Assembly (NCBI GenBank): GCA_016286365.1
Contig: JAEESN010000002.1
Span: forward strand, 62,001-126,000
Direction: 5' to 3'
From: Treponema sp.
Lineage (GTDB): Bacteria > Spirochaetota > Spirochaetia > Treponematales > Treponemataceae
Length of the DNA stretch: 64,000 nucleotides
Below the pieces are notes generated by a model that saw nothing but the letters and a program-made list of their open reading frames with translations, made no database searches and was not told the origin of the DNA. Below, one piece after another: positions 11,349-19,543 of the stretch (positions within the stretch are counted from its first letter, which is position 1; the number at the start of each line of letters is the position of its first letter). Position numbers and translations under genes: made by a program.

Positions 11349-13088
11349 TTAATTACGTATTGAATCGATGTTTGCTTTGCCACCAGGTACAAAAGGGAGT
11401 ACTGTTTCTTCTGAATCTATACTGATTCTAACAAAACATGGTTTATTTTTCCTTTTTGGGTCAAATGCCTTCAAATACCAGTCAGAATCTTTATCGGCAT
11501 CAATTGCTTCAATACCAAAACCACGGGCAATTGCCAGTAAATCAGTAGAAGAATCAAAAACTGAAGCACTGTAATTCTTATCAAACAGATATTTCTGCTG
11601 CTGATATACCATTCCAAGTGTTCCATTCTGGAAAACTATAACTGTAACTGGCAGATTCAACTCACATAAAGTTGCCATTTCCTGAATATTCATCATAATA
11701 GAGCCATCACCACTGAAACAAACTATTCGTTTTTCCGGATTTGCAAGGCTTGCCCCGATAGCAGCTGGAAGCCCAAATCCCATTGTTCCAAGGCTACCAG
11801 AAGTAAGGAATGTCCGGGGTTTTTCTACAGGATAATACTGCGCAGCCCACATCTGATGCTGTCCTACATCAGTTGTAATGATTAAATCATCTTTAGAAAT
11901 ACCGGCTTTTTTAGCAAAATCAGGTGTAGATGCAATAATTTGACGAGGATTAACTGATTTTTCATTCTTAGGCCTACCCAAAGTGATTAAATCAGTTTCA
12001 TCCTTGATTTTCTTAATCTTTTTGAGCCAGTTTGAATCAGTTTTTATCTTTTTTTCCTTAATTAATTCTGCGAAAGCAGGCATAAATGATTCAACATCAG
12101 CAACAACTGATATCGTTGAAGGAATAATCTTATCAATTTCTGCAGCATCAATATCTACATGAATGATTTTCGCATCAGGACAAAACTGTTTTACAAGACC
12201 TGTGGCACGATCATCAAAACGAACACCTGCCGCTATAACCAAATCCGATTCATGAACGGCTACATTCGCTGCATAACTACCATGCATACCTATCATTCCA
12301 ATAAATTCTTCCCTAGATTCAGGAATACAGCCAAGTCCCATCAAACTTGTTACAACAGGAATAGAATATACTGAAAGAAACTTATTCAAGCCATCTGATG
12401 CTTGAGGAGAATTACAACCTCCACCACAATAAAGAACGGCTTTTTTAGAAGAAGCAAGAAGTTTAATCATCTGTTCAAGTTTTTGTGAAAAATTCTTAGC
12501 ATCTGTATGAAAACGTACGGGATTTCGTCCGGATGAAGCTGTTTTTGTTGATTTTTTAAGCTGTGCAGGATCAACATCAATGCTCTGAAGTTGAACATCA
12601 CGCGGAACATCAATAAGAACAGGGCCTGGACGTCCGCTCAAAGCTATTTCAAAAGCAAGAGGGATTGCTTCAAGCAGTTCTGATGCTGATTTTACCATAA
12701 CAGAATGTTTTGTTATCGGAAATGAAAGACCAAATGTGTCTGCTTCCTGAAAAGCATCAGTTCCTATCAGACTTGTATTAACCTGACCAGTGATTGCAAT
12801 AATCGGAATGGAATCACAACGAGCATCAGCAATTGCCGTAAGAAGATTCATTGCTCCAGGACCACTAGTTGCCATACAAACTGCAATATTCCCGGTTGAA
12901 CGGGCGATTCCCTGGGCTATAAATCCGGCTGCCTGTTCCTGGCGCACAAGGACGTGTCGGATAGAAGATCTGTTCAATTCATCATAAAGAGGTAAGATTG
13001 ATCCTCCTGGTATTCCTGCAACCATCCTAATACCATAATTTTCAAGCATCTTAATAATAATCTGTGCGCCGGTTAATTTCATAGCCAT
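11349..13088 (-). CDS. ilvB: Acetolactate synthase large subunit (TPP-dependent)
   Basis: GIRMVAGIPGGSILPLYDEL, RQEQAAGFIAQGIARSTG, ATSGPGAMNLLTAIADA, GDGSIMMNIQEMATL motifs; SD-like aggag upstream of ATG. Confidence 0.92.
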   Translation of the reverse strand: MAMKLTGAQIIIKMLENYGIRMVAGIPGGSILPLYDELNRSSIRHVLVRQEQAAGFIAQGIARSTGNIAVCMATSGPGAMNLLTAIADARCDSIPIIAITGQVNTSLIGTDAFQEADTFGLSFPITKHSVMVKSASELLEAIPLAFEIALSGRPGPVLIDVPRDVQLQSIDVDPAQLKKSTKTASSGRNPVRFHTDAKNFSQKLEQMIKLLASSKKAVLYCGGGCNSPQASDGLNKFLSVYSIPVVTSLMGLGCIPESREEFIGMIGMHGSYAANVAVHESDLVIAAGVRFDDRATGLVKQFCPDAKIIHVDIDAAEIDKIIPSTISVVADVESFMPAFAELIKEKKIKTDSNWLKKIKKIKDETDLITLGRPKNEKSVNPRQIIASTPDFAKKAGISKDDLIITTDVGQHQMWAAQYYPVEKPRTFLTSGSLGTMGFGLPAAIGASLANPEKRIVCFSGDGSIMMNIQEMATLCELNLPVTVIVFQNGTLGMVYQQQKYLFDKNYSASVFDSSTDLLAIARGFGIEAIDADKDSDWYLKAFDPKRKNKPCFVRISIDSEETVLPFVPGGKANIDSIRN

Positions 13089-13120: not shown

Positions 13121-13153
13121 TAAAAAAGCTCTCTGTTCATTCCAGAGAGCTTT
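13121..13153 (-). terminator. Rho-independent terminator/attenuator of ilvB leader
   Basis: Minus strand: aaagctctctg-gaatgaa-cagagagctttttta; 11-bp perfect stem followed by a T run, located between leader peptide and ilvB. Confidence 0.88.
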
Positions 13154-13201
13154 AATTATATTTTTAAGTTCCTTAGTCTAAAAATAATAACAAGTCTCTG
13201 G

Positions 13202-13261
13202 TTAGCAACTAACCACAAGGACGAGAACTGTTACGACTTTTACTAAAGATTTAGTTTTCAT
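13202..13261 (-). CDS. Branched-chain-amino-acid leader peptide (attenuation)
   Basis: ATG at 13261 reads MKTKSLVKVVTVLVLVVSC-stop: 7 Val and 3 Leu in 19 residues, immediately upstream of ilvB. Confidence 0.82.
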   Translation of the reverse strand: MKTKSLVKVVTVLVLVVSC

Positions 13262-13267
13262 GACTTT

Positions 13268-13296
13268 ATAATGATGATTTTATGGAAAATTGTCAA
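13268..13296 (-). promoter_or_regulatory. Candidate promoter of the ilvB leader
   Basis: Minus strand TTGACA (13291-13296), 17-nt spacer, CATTAT (13268-13273). Confidence 0.5.
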
Positions 13297-13306
13297 GAGA
13301 AAGATG

Positions 13307-13361
13307 GACAAGGGGGACAACCCTCGATGTTTATATGGCATCGAGGGTTGTCCCCCTTGTC
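13307..13361. repeat. Inverted dispersed-repeat pair (23-bp arms, 9-nt loop)
   Basis: gacaagggggacaaccctcgatg-tttatatgg-catcgagggttgtcccccttgtc. Confidence 0.93.
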
Positions 13362-13372
13362 ATTAAAGAAAA

Positions 13373-13720
13373 TCATGCAGTTTTTCTGAATTTACACTGT
13401 TCGCATGCAGCCGGATTCTGAATCATACATGAAGCAGCATGTTCTGAACAAAAACACTTTACCTGTACCAGATTATATTTGACAATATCGTCCATAGAAA
13501 CCTTAAAAAGTCTGGCTAAAACGAGAAGATTATCAATTGAAGGTGCATTTTTTCCCTGTTCCCAAGCGTAAATTGCCTGCGGATATTCAAAACCGAATAC
13601 TTCCTGTAAATCCTGAACGGAAAATTCGTTTAATTTTCTGAGATTTTTTATAGTTTCACCAGTTTTTACTAAATTTATTACCGGCTTTAATATTATTCTT
13701 ATATTTTTTATACTTTTCAT
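13373..13720 (-). CDS. XRE-family helix-turn-helix regulator with Cys-rich C-terminus
   Basis: IKNLRKLNEFSVQDLQEVFGFEYPQAIYAWEQGKNAPSIDNLLVLARLFKVSMDDIV; tail CFCSEHAASCMIQNPAACEQC. Confidence 0.75.
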   Translation of the reverse strand: MKSIKNIRIILKPVINLVKTGETIKNLRKLNEFSVQDLQEVFGFEYPQAIYAWEQGKNAPSIDNLLVLARLFKVSMDDIVKYNLVQVKCFCSEHAASCMIQNPAACEQCKFRKTA

Positions 13721-14487: not shown

Positions 14488-14521
14488 AACACCTTTGAAT
14501 TGGGATTATAACATAATAATT

Positions 14522-14545
14522 GACAAAAGGGACAGCCCTCGATGA
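14522..14545 (+). repeat. Single dispersed-repeat copy upstream of the RAYT gene
   Basis: gacaaaagggacagccctcgatga, about 65 bp upstream of the transposase start. Confidence 0.7.
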
Positions 14546-14609
14546 TTTTTTTTTTAAATTCTTGCACTTTTTTAAAAGTAATTTCGTATATTATTGTAAG
14601 GAGATTATT

Positions 14610-15365
14610 ATGTCTCGAAAGAATAGAAAATATGGAAAAAGCGGGATTTATCATATCATAATCCGCGGAAATGACAAACAGAACATCTTCTATGACGAAA
14701 ATGACCGTTTCCATCTGCTAAACAGGCTTTCGAAATACGCAAGGGAACTTAATATTCAGGTTTTCGCATACTGTCTGATGAATAATCATGTACATATGCT
14801 TATTGGTAACGGGAATTTTGGTATGAGTAAGTTCATGCTCAAGTTAAATACTAGTTATTCTATGTATTTCAATCGAAAATATGAAAGATGCGGCCATCTT
14901 TTTCAGGGAAGATATCTAAGTGAAACAATAGAAGATACTGTATCTTTTAAAGAAGTCATCAGATATATATTCTATAACCCGGTAAAAGCCTGGCACCAAG
15001 ATTTTACTACATATAAATGGTGTAGCTACAAACATTTTCTTTCGGATAAAGAGTCAATTTTCAATAACTTCCTTGATAAACAGACCGTTTTGAATATTTT
15101 TGAATCAAAAAATTCATTCATAAACTTCAATAAACTATATTCCACCGATATCTTTATGGAATATGAAAATAAACCACTGATAAATGACGAACGAGGACTC
15201 ATCCTCATAAAGAAACTTTTAAAAATAAATAACATATCATCCATAAAAAAATATGATTCAAAAATACTTAAAAATAAACTATCGCTATTAAGAAGAAATG
15301 GTCTACCTGTTAATCAGATATCAAGACTGACAGGAATAAGTCGTCATATTATTCTCCTTTCTTGA
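14610..15365 (+). CDS. IS200-like Y1/HUH transposase, REP-associated (RAYT) type
   Basis: SGIYHIIIRGNDKQNIFYDENDRFHLLNRL, YCLMNNHVHMLIG (HUH motif HVH), CGHLFQGRYLSE, C-terminal HTH-like GLPVNQISRLTGISRHII; SD aaggag upstream. No IS-like terminal repeats recognised. Confidence 0.85.
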   Translation: MSRKNRKYGKSGIYHIIIRGNDKQNIFYDENDRFHLLNRLSKYARELNIQVFAYCLMNNHVHMLIGNGNFGMSKFMLKLNTSYSMYFNRKYERCGHLFQGRYLSETIEDTVSFKEVIRYIFYNPVKAWHQDFTTYKWCSYKHFLSDKESIFNNFLDKQTVLNIFESKNSFINFNKLYSTDIFMEYENKPLINDERGLILIKKLLKINNISSIKKYDSKILKNKLSLLRRNGLPVNQISRLTGISRHIILLS

Positions 15366-15392: not shown

Positions 15393-16853
15393 ATGAGTTT
15401 AAATTGTAATGAAATAAATCTTATACTTAAAGAATTAGATTTAACAGATAATTACATACAGGACATAATTCAACCTAGCTACGATGTTATTGTTTTTCAT
15501 GTATACAAAAAAGGAACACCCAAAACTATCCTAATTTGTACTGCCCAGAATTCAGTTAGAATAAATGAAACAAAACGAAAAATAACCAAAAACAACAAAC
15601 CTCTCAGATTCATGGAATTCTTAAAATCTCACATAAAAGGATGCCGAATAGGAAGTTGTGAACAAATTGGGCTAGAACGTGTGATAAAAATGATACTCTA
15701 TCGTCAAAATCCCGATAATTTAGAAGATAATATCATTTTCAATTTATATATTAAGCTTTGGAATAATGCTGCAAATATAATTCTTTGTGATAAAAATGAT
15801 TTAATCCTGGAAACTATGTTTCGTAGACCAGAACAATACGAAATTAAGGACGAAACTTTCATCCCACCAGCTCAAAATCCAGAAAAAAACAAAGATTCTT
15901 TAACAAAATTTCCAATAAGAGAATATAACACCGAGGGCTGTCCCCCTTGTTCTTTCAATCTCTTCATAGATTCCTGGTATTCAGAACATGCGCAGACATT
16001 AAGCCGGGAAGCTCTTCTGTTACGTGCTGAGAAATGGTTCTTCTCCAGTTATTCAAAACGTAAAAATGCATTAAATAAACTACTTGATAAGCAAAAATCT
16101 TTTGAAAATGCAATACAACTGAAAAATCAGGGAGATTTAATTCTTTCATATGCACATTTGATTAAAAAAGATTCAAATACACTTACATGCACAGATTTTA
16201 ATACGGGAAAAGAGGTTAATATCATTATAAATCCTAACTTATCACCACAAGAAAATGCCTCATTGTATTATAATAATTACAAAAAAGCATTAAGCGGAGC
16301 AGAAGAAATCAAACATGATATTGAACTTTCTAAAAATTCTCTTGAAAAACTGAAAAAACAATACGAAGAAATAAAAAATGAGCCAAATCCTGTTAAAATT
16401 GAACAGCTACTTCGATACACGACAAAACCAAAACAGCAACAGAAGAAGATTCATCCAGGATTAGATTATATCATCGATGGTTGGACTGTATATGTTGGAC
16501 GAGATGCCAACGAAAATGATGATCTTCTACGGCATTATGTACGAGGAGAAGACTTATGGCTTCATGTGAGAGACTATCCAGGGGGATATGTCTTTATAAA
16601 ATCCAGAAAAGGAAAGACTGTCCCCCTTGATATTCTTCTTGATGCGGCAAATTTAGCTGTTTATTACTCAAAAGCCAGAACAAATACTAAAGTTGATTTA
16701 TACTACACCCATGTAAAATATCTCAGACGAGCGAAAACCTCTTCAAAAACACATAAAGGGCTGGTTTTACCAACTCAGGAAAAAAATTTGTGTATCACAC
16801 CAGACAAACAACGCTTAAAACGACTTGATTCTATCCATCAAGAAAATATTTAA
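15393..16853 (+). CDS. NFACT family protein (Rqc2/RqcH/FbpA-like)
   Basis: C-terminal [45 protein letters not shown]...[41 protein letters not shown]. Confidence 0.82.
15931..15952 (-). repeat. Dispersed-repeat copy read in frame in the NFACT gene
   Basis: ccgagggctgtcccccttgttc, encoding TEGCPPCS. Confidence 0.75.
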
Positions 16854-16860
16854 TGTTTAT

Positions 16861-16924
16861 AACAAGGGTTGTCCCCCTTGCAAAAACCAATCTTTTCATA
16901 AACACCAAGGGTTGTCCCCCCTGC
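16861..16924. repeat. Two direct dispersed-repeat copies upstream of leuS
   Basis: aacaagggttgtcccccttg and caagggttgtcccccctgctc, 43 bp apart, same orientation. Confidence 0.85.
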
Positions 16925-16990
16925 TCACCCCCTGCCCATATTCACTCAATCCCTTTTTTCCTATATAATAAACAAAACTTGGAGGCAATT

Positions 16991-19543
16991 ATGTCAAAAT
17001 ATCCTTTTGAATCAATCGAGCCAAAATGGCAGAAATACTGGGATGAAAAGAAAACTTTTAAAGTAACTGAGGATGAAAAATTTCCGAAGGATAAACGCAT
17101 GTATGTTCTTGATATGTTCCCTTATCCTTCTGCAGCAGGACTACACGTAGGACATCCTGAAGGCTACACTGCAACAGATATTTACTGCCGCTACCTTCGT
17201 ATGAACGGTTACAATGTACTTCATCCTATGGGATATGATGCATTCGGTCTTCCGGCAGAAAACTACGCCATCAAAACAGGAACTCATCCAAAGACAACAA
17301 CAAACGCAAATATAGAACACTTTACACAGCAGATTAAATCGCTCGGCTTCAGCTACGACTGGGACCGCTGTGTATCTACCTGTGAACCAGATTATTACAA
17401 ATGGACTCAGTGGATTTTCCTCCAGCTCTACAAAAAAGGCCTTGCATACGAAGCACAGACTCCAATCAACTGGTGTCCTTCATGTCTTACAGGTCTTGCA
17501 AACGAAGAAGTAAAAGACGGAAAATGTGACCGCTGTGGTGCAGAAGTAACACACAAAACAATCCGCCAGTGGATTTTAAAAATCACTGAATATGCTGACC
17601 GCCTTGATAACGACCTTGACAGCCTTGACTGGCCGGAAAGCGTAAAGACAATGCAGCACAACTGGATTGGAAAATCAACCGGTGCAGAAGTTACATTCAC
17701 TGTAGCAGAAAAAGACGGAAAACCAACAGATAATAAACTCACTGTATATACAACACGCTGCGATACATTGTTTGGCGCAACTTACATGGTTGTAAGCCCA
17801 GAACATAAAATCATTCCGGAAATTACTACACCAGAGCAGGAAAGCGCAGTAAAGGCATATCAGGAAGCAGCAGCAAAAAAATCTGACCTTGAGCGAACTG
17901 ATCTTGCTAAAGACAAAACCGGTGTATTCAGTGGAAGCTATGCAATCAATCCTGTAAACGGAAAACTCATTCCTATCTGGATTGCTGATTATGTTCTTAT
18001 CTCTTACGGAACCGGTGCTATTATGGCCGTTCCTGCACACGATGACCGCGACTGGGAATTTGCAAAGAAATTTGACCTTCCTATAATCGAAGTTTTAAAG
18101 AGCGAAGTTGATGTTCAAAAGCAGGCATGGACCGAAGACGGTATCCACGTTAATTCTGAATTCCTTGATGGATTGAACAAACAGGATGCCATCAACAAAA
18201 TGCTCGAATTCCTCGAAGAAAAGAAAATCGGACGAAAAGCAATTAATTATAAACTCCGTGACTGGGTATACAGCCGACAGCGTTATTGGGGTGAACCAAT
18301 TCCTTTAGTTCACTGTCCTGACTGTAGAACAGTTCCGGTTCCAGAAGAAGAACTCCCATTAAAGCTTCCTGAAGTAAAAAGCTATCAGCCTACAGGAACA
18401 GGAGAATCTCCTCTTGCAGCAATTGATGATTGGGTAAACTGCAAATGTCCAAAATGCGGAAAACCTGCAAAACGCGAAACAAATACAATGCCTCAGTGGG
18501 GTGGAAGCTGCTGGTATTACCTGCGCTACCTTGATCCTAACAACGAAAAAGAATTCTGTTCAAAGGAAAAAGAAAAATATTGGATGCCTGTTGATCTTTA
18601 CATCGGTGGTGCTGAACACGCAGTTCTTCACCTCCTTTATGCACGCTTTTGGCACAAGGTTTTATATGATTTGGGATTCGTTTCTACAAAAGAACCGTTC
18701 CAGCGCCTTGTAAACCAGGGTATGATTACTTCATTTGCTTACCAGAGAAAGAATAAAACTCTTGTTCCTATCGACGAAGTTGAACAGAAAGATGACGGAG
18801 CATGGTACGAAAAAGCAACCGGCGAAAAACTCGAACAGGTTGTTGCAAAGATGAGTAAATCGCTCAAGAACGTTGTAAACCCTGATGATGAAATTAAAGC
18901 TTACGGTGCTGATTCTGTTCGTATGTACGAAATGTTCATGGGACCTCTTACAATGAGTAAACCGTGGTCTACACAGGGAATCGTTGGTATTCACCGCTTC
19001 CTCGAAAAAGTATGGACAGTTTCTGAAAAACCAATCTCGGACATAAACATCGAAGGTAAACTCGAAGACAAGGCTCTTATAAGTGCAAGAAAGACTTTTG
19101 CACAGACAATCAAAAAGGTAACAGAAGATACAAAAACCTTGAACTTCAACACTGCAATTTCTCAGATGATGATTTTCATAAACGAAATCTCAAAACTGCC
19201 TGAAATCCCTCGTGCAATCTGGTCTGACTTTGTTAAAGTTCTTTCCCCTTATGCACCACACCTTGGCGAAGAACTCTGGGAAAAACTTGGAAACAAAAAC
19301 ACAATTGCATACGAAAGCTGGCCAAAGTTCAACGAAGAATATGCAAAAGATGATACAAAACAGATTGTTGTAATGGTAAACGGAAAACTCCGCGACAAGT
19401 TTGATGCTGCACCTGGAACAAGCCAGGATGACTTAAAAGCAACTGCATTCTCACTCGCAGGCGTAAAGAAGTTCACAGACGGCCACGAAGTGGTAAAGAC
19501 AATCGTTGTTCCGGATAAGCTGGTAAATATTGTTGTGAAGTAG
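16991..19543 (+). CDS. leuS: Leucyl-tRNA synthetase
   Basis: [59 protein letters not shown] (KMSKS); start at ATG preceded by SD ggaggc. Confidence 0.96.

Follow-up and report, generated by a model that had tools for sequence, protein, structure and literature searches.

The window analysed here, a 64,000-nucleotide stretch of a 2.68-Mb Treponema genome, carries on its minus strand the gene ilvB (11349..13088), for the large subunit of acetolactate synthase, which catalyses the first step towards valine and leucine. This assignment is based on a TIGR00118 score of 638 bits, against a cut-off of 538, and on the Pfam TPP_enzyme N, M and C domains. The true start of the gene is likely at 13082, with an AGGAG sequence at 13094-13090. 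The elements described below lie upstream of ilvB on the same strand and are arranged, in the order of transcription, as a promoter, a leader ORF, a hairpin (1:2), a strand 2 and a strand 3 that forms part of a terminator, followed by the AGGAG sequence and ilvB. The leader ORF (13202..13261) comprises 19 codons, encodes MKTKSLVKVVTVLVLVVSC and ends with a TAA at 13204-13202; as stated in the preliminary description, 10 of its 19 residues are Val or Leu. Its codons 12-14, GTT CTC GTC (Val-Leu-Val; 13220..13228), are taken as the control codons, and the CTCGT that they contain is invariant in an alignment of 28 sequences.

Hairpin 1:2, previously described as GGTTAG-ttg-CTAACC, is present and can be extended by one pair to TGGTTAG-TTG-CTAACCA (13199..13215, arms 13215-13209 and 13205-13199; -6.8 kcal/mol, z -3.3); it could serve as a pause hairpin or as an anti-antiterminator. 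Immediately 3' of the stop codon, strand 2 of the antiterminator (CCAGAGA, 13201-13195) is perfectly complementary to strand 3 (TCTCTGG, 13148-13142), which is located in the 5' arm of an intrinsic terminator (3:4). The latter, AAAGCTCTCTG-gaatgaa-CAGAGAGCTTT followed by a T run (13122..13153, arms 13153-13143 and 13135-13125; -17 kcal/mol, z -4.8), lies between the leader ORF and ilvB. These pairings were all correctly described before, as was their overlap: 1:2 and 2:3 have only the 3 nt CCA in common, and most of TCTCTGG belongs to both 2:3 and 3:4. Folding also revealed an apical stem-loop within the 2:3 hairpin that had been overlooked (TTATtATTTTTAG / CTTAAAAATATAA, 13156..13190, with 13190-13178 pairing with 13168-13156), the whole antiterminator hairpin reaching -12.8 kcal/mol (z -2.9). 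When both strands of the window were scanned for a terminator combined with a Val/Leu/Ile-rich ORF and a 7-bp anti-element, this was the sole locus found, and the combination did not occur in any of 6 shuffled windows, thus excluding chance at the level of the window.

IlvB homologues were present in 143 of 147 congeneric genomes, and the DNA upstream of most of them yielded 42 leaders in which a Val/Leu ORF is followed by a terminator. A covariance model (R1), built from 28 sequences including the leader of the window, recognized the element at E<=2.1e-6 in 57 of 201 congeneric genomes, and by this model it is absent from more than half of them. All strong R1 matches that were inspected either preceded ilvB or lay at the end of a contig. 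The genome carrying the window has one credible site (E 6.4e-22, a value that follows by construction from the presence of this leader in the model); its next match (E 0.003) is a plain terminator, and the inspected matches with E above about 1e-5 were likewise ordinary gene-end terminators. Some close relatives of the IlvB of the window are without a leader (for example L017, L018, L021, L023 and L028-L030), so that repeated gain or loss of the element is probable. In L193-L197 (genomes G023, G126, G087, G091 and G039), which lack the leader, ilvB is directly preceded by sequence recognized by eye as the terminal part of a 5S rRNA gene. One congener, G033, has two leaders on different contigs (L262 = G033:C260; G033:C219:1443-1593), one of which precedes an ilvB start; they represent either paralogues or contamination.

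The pairings of the element are supported by compensatory changes in 1:2 and 3:4 and by strand-matched complementarity in 2:3. In a covariance-model alignment of 46 leaders, 89% of the cells are paired, a figure that leans somewhat towards the structure to which the alignment was fitted. Changes on both sides were observed in 12 of 17 pairs (5 of 6 in 1:2 and 7 of 11 in 3:4); none of 500 shuffles matched any of the covariation measures, and sliding the partners by one column lowered the pairing to 55-66%. As this alignment (A3) is one base out of register at strand 2 for leaders of the GGTTTT type, the 2:3 pairing was assessed by permutation rather than by column counts. The duplexes formed by each leader's own strands totalled -530.5 kcal/mol, versus -443.2 +/-13.5 kcal/mol for permuted strands, and none of 20,000 permutations, which leave the relatedness of the sequences in place, was as good. 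A search for strict complements gave only a small difference between own and foreign strands; it is blind to bulged pairings, hence the use of duplex energies. Control codons and strand 2 lie at a conserved spacing (median 16, sd 3.7 nt). The interval between stop codon and strand 2 is far more variable (sd 11.7), and in L040, L049, L058 and L068 the ORF even runs through strand 2. This is what is predicted if the position of the ribosome serves as a ruler. Both the peptide and the competing stems, on whose conservation the preliminary description had made its reading depend, are thus conserved in relatives.

Val and Leu together represent 50% of the residues in the 42 leaders, which have in common a core such as LVKVVTVLVLVV and vary at both ends. 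The codon choice is strongly biased. GTC makes up 46% of the Val codons of the leaders as compared with 5% in the ilvB genes of the same genomes (about nine-fold), and CTC 32% of the Leu codons as compared with 7% (four- to five-fold); the ilvB figures come from 20 genes, the Fisher p-values for the comparison with them ignore the relatedness of the sequences, and in the ORFs of the window the shares are 6.6% for GTC and 10.6% for CTC. Furthermore, the leader ORFs contain 177 GTC/CTC triplets, of which 163 are in frame and 14 out of frame.

These findings bear on the possibility that the locus holds a plain intrinsic terminator, ending an upstream transcript or acting as a constitutive roadblock before ilvB, and that the Val/Leu ORF is fortuitous. 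The terminator is indeed the strongest single feature by z-score, and the weak R1 matches elsewhere are gene-end terminators of just this sort. Yet the HTH gene upstream, which ends at 13373, has a perfect palindrome of its own (13312-13356), situated before the ilvB promoter; conservation of the terminator goes together with that of the ORF, strand 2 and hairpin 1:2, and the GTC/CTC triplets keep to the reading frame. A plain terminator therefore appears very unlikely. We also considered that the same terminator and antiterminator might respond to a signal other than ribosome speed, through a T-box, a riboswitch for ppGpp or an amino acid, or an antiterminator bound by a protein. Such elements too switch terminators before ilvB-type genes, and the Leptospira ilvB (WRC-14-1) motif, with 7 representatives, originally entered the literature as a weak candidate for a riboswitch (PMC8632094). 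However, no Rfam 15 family reached its gathering score in the window, neither a T-box nor a ppGpp riboswitch being found, and the best leader family on the element, Phe_leader, scored 26 bits against a threshold of 55. Beyond the two switch stems, conservation is concentrated on the codons of the ORF, and the conserved ruler is that from control codon to strand 2, all of which makes another sensor highly improbable. A third possibility, that the conserved hydrophobic peptide of 19 residues acts in its own right as a membrane peptide or small toxin and that the RNA structure is secondary, is extremely unlikely. Small membrane peptides do typically have such a V/L-rich core behind a short polar N-terminus (MKTKS...), but synonymous codon choice is constrained (GTC/CTC), the peptides differ widely in their ends and lengths at a conserved spacing of the RNA elements, and the strong matches stand directly before ilvB or at contig ends.

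Ribosome-mediated attenuation is well known in other bacteria, and the sequence evidence indicates that the element is very probably a transcription attenuator of this type, controlling ilvB, whose product makes the amino acids that would be sensed. Transcription would begin at the leader AUG or no more than a few nucleotides away from it, and the ribosome would enter at the leaderless 5' end. With plentiful Val-tRNA and Leu-tRNA, it would reach the stop codon and its footprint would cover strand 2, leaving strand 3 free to form the 3:4 terminator, so that transcription would end before ilvB. If Val or Leu were short, the ribosome would stall on GUU-CUC-GUC-CUU-GUG-GUU, covering strand 1 and leaving strand 2 free; 2:3 and its apical stem would then form before strand 4 is made, allowing read-through into ilvB. 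In an untranslated leader, the RNA would fold on itself, including 1:2, strand 2 would be held, and the terminator would form.

Folding calculations agreed with this scheme. The ribosome was modelled as covering 12 nt past the A-site codon, and the transcript of the window was folded up to strand 3. The probability of 2:3 was 0.95-1.0 with the A site at codons 12-16, 0.48 at codon 17 and 0.00 at the stop codon; without a ribosome the leader was self-folded, with a probability of 0.98 for 1:2. A stall at the Val/Leu codons favoured the antiterminator in all 42 leaders, the occupancy of strand 3 being highest in the stalled state (medians 0.75 when stalled, 0.40 without a ribosome and 0.17 with the ribosome at the stop). 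With a stalled ribosome, leaders with shuffled spacers still showed an occupancy of 0.53, versus 0.77 for the real ones, which means that the folding test by itself is only moderately specific. In the full-length RNA at equilibrium, 3:4 was always preferred, implying that antitermination must be kinetic. With the upstream RNA masked, 2:3 prevailed over 1:2 even when strand 1 was free. Hairpin 1:2 is thus perhaps mainly a pause or no-translation hairpin, and its conserved role may be in RNA polymerase pausing or in shut-off when the leader is not translated. The initial reading as a classic stalling attenuator is by far the best one, except that 1:2 is a weaker competitor than had been assumed and that the leader, without a Shine-Dalgarno sequence and probably leaderless, differs in this from E. 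coli ilv/leu.

The bias towards GTC and CTC was compared with the tRNA sets of the genome carrying the window (G000, a draft; 43 matches) and of a near-complete congener (G078; 40 matches, a few of which were typed by length and score alone and one of which, of 70 nt, is without assignment). Both sets contain tRNA-Val with the anticodon UAC only, and tRNA-Leu with UAG, UAA, CAA and CAG; the cognate G34 tRNAs, Val(GAC) and Leu(GAG), were not found in either the draft or the G078 set. If these sets are correct, decoding of the Val control codons depends entirely on wobble by one tRNA, and selective charging of isoacceptors, an argument put forward for the choice of control codons in attenuators (PMC1183508), cannot explain the Val codon bias. 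It is conceivable, at somewhat below even chances in our view, that the attenuator senses the speed of translation at codons without a matching tRNA, slow wobble decoding being itself the amplifier. Were this so, the leaders would provide a natural test of a long-debated question; a GUC/CUC bias in the presence of a single Val-tRNA species makes the matter of codon choice (PMC1183508) testable in a natural setting.

The promoter is a sigma-70-like TTGACA-17-CATTAT (13268..13296, minus strand), which matches the consensus at 10 of 12 positions and whose predicted transcription start, near 13261, coincides with the leader AUG. A promoter scoring at least 9/12, with a -10 box ending 5-11 nt before the ATG (mode 6-7 nt), was found in 38 of 40 leaders, as compared with 4.9% of shuffles. 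This conserved geometry leads one to expect a start at or beside the AUG, and the Treponema leader ORF is, by its sequence, probably leaderless. Shine-Dalgarno-like sequences were seen in leaders of some other families (L318, L287, L320). There is precedent for a leaderless start: ilvL of Streptomyces lividans is transcribed leaderless (PMC8079986), the C. glutamicum ilvBNC leader is made without a ribosome-binding site (Morbach 2000, as cited in PMC11857589), and Sinorhizobium trpL starts at its own ATG (PMC7298713). The element predicts leaderless translation as well as transcription-translation coupling in Treponema. A second 10/12 sigma-70-like match, TTTAGA-16-TATAAT (13182-13155, minus strand), is located inside the antiterminator; it could give rise to an unregulated transcript bypassing the terminator, or may be due to chance in AT-rich DNA.

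A survey of the phylum, using R1 and the DNA upstream of ilvB, showed this layout to recur in further genera of the Treponema family (L273/L339, L281). Val/Leu- or Ile-rich ilvB leaders were also found in about a dozen further spirochaete families, most of them with a terminator (f38, f57, f39, f44, f54, f49, f50, f35, f22 and f29); in f55 the leader had no terminator by the criterion used. Many other ilvB genes in the survey had no such leader, no Val-rich uORF was found in the ilvB leaders of f25, f27, f5, f34 or L100 (Leptospirales), and the matches L270, L275 and L279 were discarded because ilvB is not preceded there by a Val/Leu leader. Control of ilvB by a leader peptide is probably widespread in the Spirochaetota, with covariation as evidence for the Treponema leaders and the layout for the remote cases.

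The preliminary description knew of no such element in a spirochaete. This holds only in part. The Leptospira ilvB motif, together with ilvB-OMG, was recast in 2023 as a probable attenuator with a uORF rich in branched-chain amino acids (PMC10272879); our literature search, largely confined to open-access papers, brought up nothing beyond this motif on attenuation in Treponema or spirochaetes. The Leptospira motif shares with the Treponema element the phylum, the gene, a uORF of this kind (with at least three consecutive Val codons) and the proposed mechanism. It differs, as far as can be said from its description, in being Thr-rich and in its 7 representatives, which leave little room for covariation. 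ilvB-OMG, also compared by description only, is an ilvB-associated uORF and proposed attenuator found in several phyla and rich in both branched-chain amino acids and Thr (PMC10272879); the window gave no Rfam 15 match at gathering scores. The Corynebacterium ilvB-II motif (PMC10272879) and S. lividans ilvL (PMC8079986) are ilvB leader-peptide attenuators as well, but in another phylum, with unrelated sequences and longer ilvBNC/ilvBHC operons. E. coli ilvBN, leu and ilvGMEDA have in common with the Treponema element a short Val/Leu-rich ORF, the 1:2/2:3/3:4 logic and a terminator before a gene of branched-chain amino acid biosynthesis. The ilv/leu leaders of E. coli possess an untranslated 5' segment as well as a Shine-Dalgarno sequence, whereas the Treponema ORF is predicted to be leaderless; the leaders show no sequence relationship to each other, and in the Treponema genome ilvB and ilvN are separated. 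The reinterpretation of the Leptospira motif and the leaderless ilvB attenuators of Actinobacteria weaken the novelty of our findings. Judged by sequence comparison, the mechanism is known, the sequence family is new and the spread is wider than reported. A locus noticed once has become a defined family of regulatory RNAs with a usable covariance model in Treponema; the earlier spirochaete record that we found consisted of the 7 Leptospira sequences.

In the genome carrying the window, ilvN, encoding the small subunit, lies immediately after an ORF of 833 aa resembling an aspartokinase-homoserine dehydrogenase (L384 605-3621, G000:C2). Neither ilvC nor this thrA-ilvN pair showed an attenuator in its upstream region in that genome. 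Fragments of the 3' end of tRNA-Val(UAC) are repeated in both orientations, about 100-210 bp apart, in L416 (G000:C4:51765-52012), and lie beside intact tRNA-Val genes in G078 (G078:C1:1391573-1391856 and 2394701-2395188); these repeats are possibly attachment-site or attC-like arrays. A palindromic element, GGGGGACAACCC / GGGTTGTCCCCC, recurs in the window at 13312-13356, 11290, 11326, 4955, 4997, 16866, 16909, 29340 and 61740, thus flanking ilvB on both sides and occurring inside the ORF 16853-19543 (NTKGCPPCS). A REP-associated tyrosine (Y1) transposase encoded at 14520-15365 on the plus strand (Pfam Y1_Tnp above cut-off, NCBIfam NF047646 sub-threshold) may have a connection with the neighbouring palindromic repeats.
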